A stretch of DNA of 64,000 bases from Pyrocephalus nanus (Eukaryota; Chordata; Aves; Passeriformes; Tyrannidae): the NCBI GenBank assembly GCA_038380795.1, contig CM076259.1:28130977-28194976 (forward strand). The letters run 5' to 3'. Shown here in pieces: positions 49,201 through 52,200 of this stretch. Within the stretch, counting starts at the first letter, position 1. Each line of letters starts with the position of its first letter. The position numbers and the translations under genes are program-made. The notes beneath the pieces were generated by a model. The model saw only the letters and a program-made list of their open reading frames with translations, was not told the DNA's origin and searched no databases.

Positions 49201-52200
49201 GCTAATTTCAAGGCTAAATCAGGTTCTTGTCCAGGTCAGTCCTGAACATCTCCAAGGGCGGAAATTCCCTGGAAACTGAGCATCTATGCCAGTGCTGAAT
49301 CACCCCTGGGAGAGTGGAACATAATTTCCTTGAACATAGTCAAAATTTCCCTTGTTGCAAGTTGTGTCCATTGTGTCTTGCACTATGTCACTCTGGAAAG
49401 AGCCTGGATTAATCTTTGCTAAAACCTCCCTTTAGGTGGTTGATGACATTTGTTACACCATCCCCCTTTAGCCTTTTCTCCTTTAGGCTGAACAAATCCA
49501 GCTTCCTCGGCTTCTTCTCATATACCATTACTCCAAACTCCCAACCATCCTATTGGCTTTTTTCACCCCTCTTCTTCAGTGAGGAGTCCAAAACTTCGCT
49601 TACTGGTGTTTTTGTTCTCCAGTCCATTGATGAAGTATTCGTGTAGTAGTTTCCAGTTCACGTTATCACTTCCTGTCATAATTGCCATTGCCTCCTGCTC
49701 TACTGCTACTCCTTATGTTGAAGTGTTTTTTAACTTCCATTCTCTACTCAATCCTTATTGACTTTCTGGACAGCCCTTGTTGCTCTCCAGGTGGAACAGT
49801 GTCCATGGCAGGCAGGGACTGAACAAGCTGCATCATTAGAAATCAGCACATTAATAGATGTCATTTTCCCTATAACCTTCCCTTCTTTTTGCTGCCACCA
49901 GTTTCACATGAAAAGAAAGAACTCATTGCTAGAGCGGGAAGGTATCTGTGGAGAAGCTTTCCTGAGAGCAGGAAATCTCACAGCAAGAGGCTAAGTGACT
50001 TGTACACTAAATGCCACATATAGGAAGACACTTGCCTCCAAGAGGAGCCCCGAAGCAACATCCAACTCCAACTGCGCAAGCCGGCACCAGGAGGTCGAAC
50101 TGCCTATGCACATTCTGGAACAGAGAGTGCAGCCAGAGACGGGCATGCTGGGGTTAGAGGGAGCAAAGCCAGGGGGTTAGGACCCAGAATAATGAAAATA
50201 AGCAACAGCCAGCAGCAGATTCAGCCACTGCTATTACAAATAGCAGGCTCTACATGTTTTAGTGCAGTCTTTAGTACTGTCAGCTGGTCTTCAGCAGTGA
50301 CATCTGGTCCTTGTGCACAGACACTCAAGTAAAACAGCCCCTCCAGCTGTTGTATTACACAGTAAGATTCTGCTAAGACCCTGCAGGTAAGGGAGTTCCT
50401 ACATTTAGCTATATGTGCAGTTAACAGATTTTTTTGTACAACTAGTCAAAACAGTGATCAGCCTGCAGAGGCTGGTCTGCAACAGCAAAAGCATAGAGAT
50501 GGTGTCAGTGTCTATAATTAGCAATGCTGTATAAATTTGGCTTAAAGACAAATTGATCTTTGTCTGCAGCTACTTTTTTATACAGACAATTATCACAGTG
50601 CAAAAGTATCAGCATCAAAACTTGTCAAATACATATTTCTAATCAGCCTCTGTGTAACTGAAAGGTAACTTTGGTGGTCCTAGACTGTATATCTGGCCTC
50701 CCACTACCATTTTTTTTGGCTTGTATTTTGCTGCTCAGCAGTACAGTGAATTTCAAAACATGTTTCCTCTCTGTTCTGTGGCCTACCCATGCTATCCTGT
50801 GTCTTAGGAGTTCAGCCTGTGGAAGAGCTATATGCAGAGACACGTGCCTTACCTCATACACACCACAGAAGATTGACATGAACTTGCTGAGTACTGCAGC
50901 ACAGATACTGGCAATATGAACAAAAGGACCCTGCAAGAGAAGAGAAGGAGGAAACAAGAGAGGGGTGCCCTCTGGTTACTGACAACCATTTAGCTATTGA
51001 AGACCTCATAATTTCTCTTTAGCCATCTCAGCCAGTCAGAGAACCAATAGGGTTAGAAAAGACCTCCAAGATCACAGAGTCCAACTGTGAGCAGCACCCT
51101 GTTCACCACTAGACCATGTCCCCAGATGCTACAACCACTCAGCTTTTGAATTCTTCCAGGGATGGTGATTCCACCACTTGCCTGGGCAGCCTATTTCAAT
51201 GCCTGACAACCCTTTCAGTGAAGAGATTTCTCCTAATATCTAGTCTAAACCTCATCTAGTGCAACTGAAGGCCACTTCCTCTTGTCCTGTCATTTATTAC
51301 CTGGGAGAAGAGACCAACCCCCACTTGGTTACAGCCTCCTTTCAGGTAGTTGTAGAGAGTGACAAGGTCCCTCCTGAACCTCCTTTTCTCTAGGCTAAAC
51401 CACGCCAGCTCTCTTAGCCACTCCTCAAAAGACTTGTGCTACAGACCCTTTAATCTTCCTTAGTCCTCCAGTCTCCATGTATTTTCCAGACTCTGCTTAC
51501 TGTTGCACATGGAAACAGCAAAATTTACCTCTTTCCCCACAGGCATGCCACTTCCAAGCCCAGCTGTAAGGCTCACAACTTTGGCCACAAAAGCTTTGAG
51601 AGTGAGATATTCCTTGAGGACCACTCCCCTCATAATGGTCTTGAGCTCTGGGATCCCAGACCCTGAAAACAACAGCAGAGCAGGGGATGAACTTAACCTG
51701 CAGGCAAATGAAACAAGAAAAACAAGACAGACAGAAACAGATCTTGCCATGCCTTCTGCCCTCACCAACAGCCTGCGGAGAGACGAGGTGGCAGACAATG
51801 GCCGCAAACAGAATGAGAGCAAGTGGATATGCAACCCACACCACATACTGCAGAGGAACATTTGGGTGCAGCTCTCTGTACATCCACTTGTAGGCTGTAG
51901 ACAGAAAAACAGAGAAGTTGTCAGTAACCACAGCTGCTCCAAACAGGTTGGTACACATCAAAGAAACACACACTTGCAAACCTGCCCACGCTAAATTTCC
52001 CTGAGAAATTCTACCCTAGAGTCCTCATTTTCTAAGATAAGCCTTGTTACATTTTGAATTCCCAAATAAAGCAGGCATTCTGGAAGAACGGCTAGAAGAC
52101 AGTATTAATGCCTGTGCCCAAGTGTGGCATAAGAAGAGATGTGTTACATGCAGTTGTGATGAATCACTGTACAGTCTCTTTTCATTTGGTAACCTGACTG

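Follow-up and report, generated by a model that had tools for sequence, protein, structure and literature searches.

Exon 7a of CLCN1 in Pyrocephalus nanus: an old duplicate of exon 7 and its probable role as a coding replacement

The CLCN1 gene of the bird Pyrocephalus nanus holds two versions of one small exon, and it raises the question of what the second version has been for. The window analyzed here is a stretch of 64,000 nucleotides (nt) of contig CM076259.1. Within it, the canonical exon 7 of CLCN1 is preceded by a related exon of the same length, exon 7a. Such an exon could serve as a coding replacement for exon 7, as a poison exon, as a carrier of RNA signals, or it could be a relic. 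We consider it probable that 7a, an ancient duplicate of exon 7, was selected as a coding replacement, used in transcripts that join exons 6, 7a and 8 (6-7a-8). If 7a is an old and selected alternative of exon 7, the splicing event of myotonic dystrophy would reflect an ancient exon choice that fails, and the channel ClC-1 would have, or would once have had, a second form.

CLCN1 occupies the minus strand of the window. A CLC-2 bait sequence matches coding sequence between 53.3 and 25.2 kb and, more weakly, at 54.0 kb. The splice model built for part of the gene has 15 exons, an open frame and the Pfam domain Voltage_CLC, and additional coding matches extend beyond it to about 25.2 kb. The automatic model clearly misplaces one junction (near 39.1/37.7 kb), which is irrelevant to exons 7 and 7a. 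In the model, exon 7a lies between exons 6 and 7, and the intron from 7a to 7 (47037-50035) is 2,999 nt long. The features needed for the argument are as follows.

31357..53314, minus strand: modelled part of CLCN1, 15 exons (splice model; the first and last exons end at match boundaries)
50853..50930, minus strand: CLCN1 exon 6, 78 nt, phase 0 at its end (splice model)
50115..50160, minus strand: acceptor of exon 7a with its pyrimidine-rich tract, ending in CTCTCTGTTCCAG (sequence)
50036..50114, minus strand: CLCN1 exon 7a, 79 nt, 26 residues plus G, duplicate of exon 7 and, by sequence comparison, ortholog of mouse 7a
50026..50035, minus strand: GC donor of exon 7a, GAG/GCAAGT, the same GCAAGT as in mouse 7a
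46958..47036, minus strand: canonical CLCN1 exon 7, 79 nt, 26 residues plus G, GC donor GCAAGT, acceptor ending in CACCAGTAG (splice model)
44638..44763, minus strand: CLCN1 exon 8, 126 nt (splice model)

The original prediction described 7a as an intact duplicate of exon 7, and the description holds. The exon has exactly 79 nt, the same phase as exon 7, an open frame and an AG acceptor (...CTGTTCCAG, directly before position 50114 on the minus strand). The two bird exons are identical at 15 of 26 residues and 46 of 79 bases. The identity of 15 residues and the divergence of the first 12 had both been claimed correctly: 10 of the 11 amino-acid-changing codons fall in codons 1-12, and none of the residues in codons 1-6 is common to the two copies (0/6). 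Codons 13-26 contain eight synonymous differences and a single non-synonymous one (T vs A). The junction coordinates proposed earlier (50853, 50114, 50036, 47036 and 44763) are also consistent with the gene model. What had been missed is the donor, which is GC (GAG/GCAAGT) and not GT in both bird exon 7 and bird 7a.

The resemblance is singular within the window. When all 127,826 segments of 79 nt on both strands were scored against the exon 7 peptide (BLOSUM62, ungapped), exon 7 itself scored 152, 7a scored 84 and the next segment 27. With exon 7 (peptide plus G) as the query, tblastn against the window gave an expectation value (E) of 2e-9 for 7a and 0.39 for the next best match. No further exon-7-like copy was found among the best-scoring rows of either scan. 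By comparison, 290 of the 127,826 segments are open and have AG and GT/GC borders, so that such signals alone are not rare and mean little. As expected, a degenerate pattern of the 10-residue core had 0 matches in prokaryote genome contigs and 0 in viral contigs, and a search of phage sequences had no hit at E 1e-5.

The age of the duplication can be read from the mouse. A mouse Clcn1 minigene insert is printed among the oligonucleotides of PMC5964235, where the exon is named 6B, and the insert holds the acceptor targeted by the exon 7a antisense oligonucleotide described in PMC10082032. After this acceptor, mouse 7a has 79 nt with an open translation of 26 residues, followed by a GCAAGT donor. 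The mouse products of reverse transcription polymerase chain reaction (RT-PCR), published as 424 and 345 bp, likewise differ by 79 nt. Mouse 7a searched against the window by blastn finds its best match at 50111-50036 (E 1e-9), and the next best has an E of 0.51. Bird and mouse 7a match at 57 of 78 bases and are identical at 19 of 26 residues; bird exon 7 shares 15 residues with bird 7a and 12 with mouse 7a. The residues at seven positions (2 V, 5 Q, 8 L, 10 V, 11 P, 12 A and 23 A) are common to bird and mouse 7a and unlike those of bird and human exon 7. With 19 of 26 residues and these seven 7a-only residues in common, the two 7a copies are orthologous, and exon 7 was therefore duplicated before the bird-mammal split. 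The mammalian exon agrees further in its place in intron 6, its length of 79 nt and its GCAAGT donor. It differs in that the bird has C278, L283 and N1/R4 (N1/R4 as in CLC-2), against Y, D, T and G in the mouse. The GC donor is probably older than the duplication, since exon 7, bird 7a and mouse 7a all carry GCAAGT.

From the open frame of the bird exon, the original prediction had argued that the duplication preceded the bird-mammal split and that the frame was selected. Both conclusions are supported, but openness is not specific to the bird, as mouse 7a is open too. The mammalian exon had also been characterized as frame-shifting. Its position in the same intron stands, whereas the mouse exon is itself open and the shift arises when it is added to exon 7. 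Statements on the premature stop differ in the literature: exon 7A is said to contain it in PMC10834251, and it is located in exon 7 in PMC10082032. Contrary to the former, mouse 7a is without an in-frame stop. The human exon 7a sequence was not found in print, a search with sequence fragments having returned PMC5964235 alone. In the portion of the CLCN1 and exon-duplication literature covered by the search, 7a was nowhere called a copy of exon 7, which is no proof that it never has been.

Selection on the peptide is the evidence that carries the argument further. The open frame on its own was rejected as weak evidence, since 48-67% of neutral simulations remain open. The differences between bird and mouse 7a fall at codon positions 1/2/3 in the proportion 3/5/13 (permutation P 0.002). 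Their 19 identical residues exceed a neutral simulation with an equal number of changes, which gave a mean of 13.5-13.6 (P 0.001-0.002). A pairwise codon model yields maximum-likelihood omega values of 0.25 (F3x4) and 0.19 (equal frequencies), and omega = 1 fits worse (2dlnL 6.5 and 10.6, respectively). Bird exon 7 and bird 7a differ in the proportion 10/6/17 (P 0.003); mouse 7a compared with bird exon 7 shows no significant third-position bias (11/11/15, P 0.15). A pairwise omega between exon 7 and 7a is unusable as a figure, as the fitted distance ran away. Alignment of bird and mouse gives the exon a score of 37 against a shuffle mean of 7.7. Conservation stops at the donor, where the 117 nt of downstream flank score 8 against a shuffle mean of 7.8 (P 0.51). 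The 124 nt of pyrimidine-rich upstream flank are weakly conserved (score 16 vs a mean of 9.4, P 0.004). Judged from this codon pattern, 7a is under protein-coding constraint as read in 6-7a-8. The peptide matters solely when the frame continues beyond it, so that the constraint points to the use of 6-7a-8 transcripts during much of the exon's history.

The exon lengths define which transcripts can encode a channel. The claim that 7a can replace exon 7 in frame was borne out in silico, as the swapped bird model remains open. When 7a and 7 are both included, a stop falls within exon 8, 16 nt from its start and 110 nt from its end, and when both are skipped the model meets a stop as well. Each copy has 79 nt (3n+1), and the in-frame transcripts are therefore those with exactly one copy. 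Nonsense-mediated decay (NMD) would leave single-copy messages only. Exons 7a and 7 are homologous neighbors of equal length and the same phase, of which exactly one keeps the frame in the model, and both properties are those of mutually exclusive duplicated pairs, as is the coding constraint on the extra copy that emerges from the two 7a sequences. SCN5A 6A and 6B are tandem duplicates of this kind. Like such mutually exclusive ion-channel exons, the bird copies are homologous tandem exons of equal length and phase, a swap alters a membrane segment, and the frame is lost when both are included. In contrast to them, the bird copies lie about 3 kb apart and both have GC donors, the 7a-8 transcript is a predicted one, and the mouse pair is used as an exon and a poison exon. 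We treat 7a and 7 as a candidate, and not as an established, mutually exclusive pair.

The preferred reading can be put as a series of steps. CLCN1 exon 7 underwent a tandem duplication before the bird and mammal lineages separated, and the upstream copy, 7a, would have been retained by selection as a protein-coding replacement of exon 7. The ClC-1 made from 6-7a-8 would have an altered end of the F-G linker and an altered start of helix G, with the GVGCC core unchanged. Transcripts with both copies or with neither would meet a stop and be removed by NMD. The choice between 7a and 7 would depend on the GC donors and on regulators, for example MBNL/CELF, that act on 7a. Mouse 7a now behaves as a low-inclusion poison exon. 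Mutually exclusive use is the best reading of the 7a codon pattern; that birds make the 6-7a-8 transcript today, and the manner of its regulation, we infer. The stronger claim, that 7a and 7 are a genuine exclusive pair pre-dating the split and that in some tissue, or at some stage, birds produce a second ClC-1 channel with a 7a-coded F-G/helix G region, is a tentative one that falls somewhat short of probable. If it is true, the mammalian myotonic dystrophy exon would be the remnant of an exon switch and not a cryptic exon, and it would have been overlooked because a 79-nt for 79-nt swap leaves the size of the RT-PCR product unchanged.

The peptide encoded by 7a is compatible with this proposal in several respects. 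The bird exon 7 peptide corresponds to residues 259-284 of human ClC-1, with 24 of 26 residues matching, and we take these residues to be the end of the F-G linker and the start of helix G. A swap of 7a for 7 retains the GVGCCF core with C277 and C278, the former being presumably important in slow gating. It replaces the Tyr-rich QPYYY by NVHRQ and introduces T268V, V269P and G270A. The exon 6-7-8 segment was searched against PDB in its 7a and exon 7 versions. The 7a version scored above the exon 7 version against CLC-2 (163.5 vs 156.8), CLC-K (84.5 vs 79.6), CLC-3 (59.6 vs 56) and CmCLC (50.8 vs 46.3), and the two were about equal against CLC-7 and CLC-a. These higher scores suggest that 7a reads as a working CLC segment. 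Of the 26 residues, 16 are identical to CLC-2 in bird 7a, 13 in bird exon 7 and 14 in mouse 7a.

Regulation of the choice may leave a trace in the sequence around the exon.

49936..50364, minus strand: 7a and its flanks, dense in UGCU/YGCY, candidate MBNL region (motif counts; suggestive)

These 429 nt contain 9 UGCU and 11 YGCY. The mean for UGCU is 2.6, and the region ranks in the top 0.8% of gene windows. UGCU is clustered around 7a, whereas its complement AGCA shows no enrichment; GC dinucleotides are also enriched in this stretch. The clustering is suggestive of a regulator and marks a candidate MBNL region.

A number of observations weigh against a selected coding replacement. The tests of selection draw on two sequences of exon 7a, those of bird and mouse. 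In the PDB search, the 7a version scored below the exon 7 version against CLC-1 (170.5 vs 199.2) and CLC-6 (30.2 vs 35.5), and the Pfam score of the swapped model is slightly lower than that of the canonical one (242.6 vs 244.2 bits). Mouse 7a has C278Y (human ClC-1 numbering) at a site that is C in CLC-1 and CLC-2 and V in CLC-K, and L283D where CLC-1, CLC-2 and CLC-K have L, I or F. Together, the two changes suggest relaxation or partial decay of the 7a peptide in the mouse lineage. Devices that would enforce exclusion are not apparent in the bird gene. Steric exclusion is not evident, as the 7a-to-7 intron is not too short to splice, and by inspection the GC-AG sites are U2-like, with no U2/U12 mismatch seen. 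A review places the action of MBNL1 at the junction of intron 6 and exon 7A and describes an MBNL hairpin at the 7A acceptor (PMC4176163). A conserved hairpin at this place was rejected here, since the acceptor folds no better than shuffles in bird (z -0.56) or mouse (z 0.17). In zebrafish mbnl mutants, CLCN1 splicing is reported as unchanged (PMC8246264). A mouse long-read study treats isoforms with 7a inclusion as potential NMD candidates, and an isoform in which 7a replaces 7 is not named in its accessible text (PMC12458930). In mice with 7a deleted, ClC-1 currents are described as larger than in wild type from P7 to P18. These larger currents fit a poison-exon role, and a swap isoform in the mouse would be dispensable for muscle current.

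The mouse results lead to the alternative that survives best, namely that 7a in birds today is a poison exon only, which tunes the level of ClC-1 and keeps a coding pattern left from older exclusive use. It agrees with the larger early currents of the 7a-deleted mice and with published descriptions of mouse 7a as an exon that is added to exon 7, shifts the frame and leads to NMD. Inclusion in wild-type P18 mouse muscle is given as 6.65% by RT-PCR. In the bird, the stop in the message with 7a and 7 falls 110 nt before the exon end, and the 2,999-nt intron offers no device of steric exclusion. Exon 7a therefore resembles NMD-coupled poison exons in the premature stop that its joint inclusion yields. 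It differs from them in that their peptide need not be conserved, whereas that of 7a is. A poison exon needs no amino acids of its own, and the low omega and third-position bias of 7a mean that its peptide was important for much of the time separating bird and mouse. Bird 7a also retains CLC-like residues where mouse 7a deviates. We regard a role as poison exon alone as unlikely in birds. The published assays have a bearing on how a replacement isoform would appear. The primers of a published RT-PCR lie in exons 5 and 8 (PMC12946605), and published droplet digital PCR (ddPCR) assays detect the 6-7 and 7a-7 junctions. From these designs, a 6-7a-8 message would have normal size and contain neither ddPCR junction, and it would be scored as normal by size or go uncounted in ddPCR.

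A different alternative is that the constraint acts on RNA, through a splicing enhancer or MBNL/CELF sites, and not on protein. The clustering of UGCU/YGCY around 7a, the weak conservation of the upstream flank (P 0.004) and the action of MBNL1 at the intron 6-exon 7A junction given in PMC4176163 all speak for it. However, RNA elements would not predict the concentration of changes at third positions (3/5/13), nor a run of 13 codons with synonymous changes and zero amino-acid changes, and the hairpin at the acceptor is of ordinary stability. This account is very improbable.

That 7a is a functionless, decaying relic, open by chance, is strongly disfavored and hardly credible: the frequent survival of an open frame in neutral simulation and the 0/6 residues shared with exon 7 in codons 1-6 would suit it, but a neutral 79 nt should not reach 57 of 78 matching bases and an omega of about 0.2 since the bird and mammal lineages split, the downstream flank, unlike the exon, resembles its mouse counterpart no better than shuffles do, and the AG acceptor, GC donor and length are kept in both bird and mouse.

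Other features of the window were recorded alongside the gene. Coding exons of the FAM131 family (Pfam PF15010) lie on the plus strand at 9148-10365. Intron 7 contains an insert of about 1.9 kb (44850-46738, minus strand) with inverted ends, CAGTGGTCTCC...GGAGACCACTG, flanked by the 8-mers TTCTAGAA and CTCTAGAA, which match at 7 of 8 positions. The insert sits between exons 7 and 8, not between 7a and 7, and we take it to resemble a hAT-type DNA transposon. Within the 7a-to-7 intron, the segments 49150-49450 and 47920-48300 (minus strand) have similar wording, presumably that of CR1-type retroelement tails.
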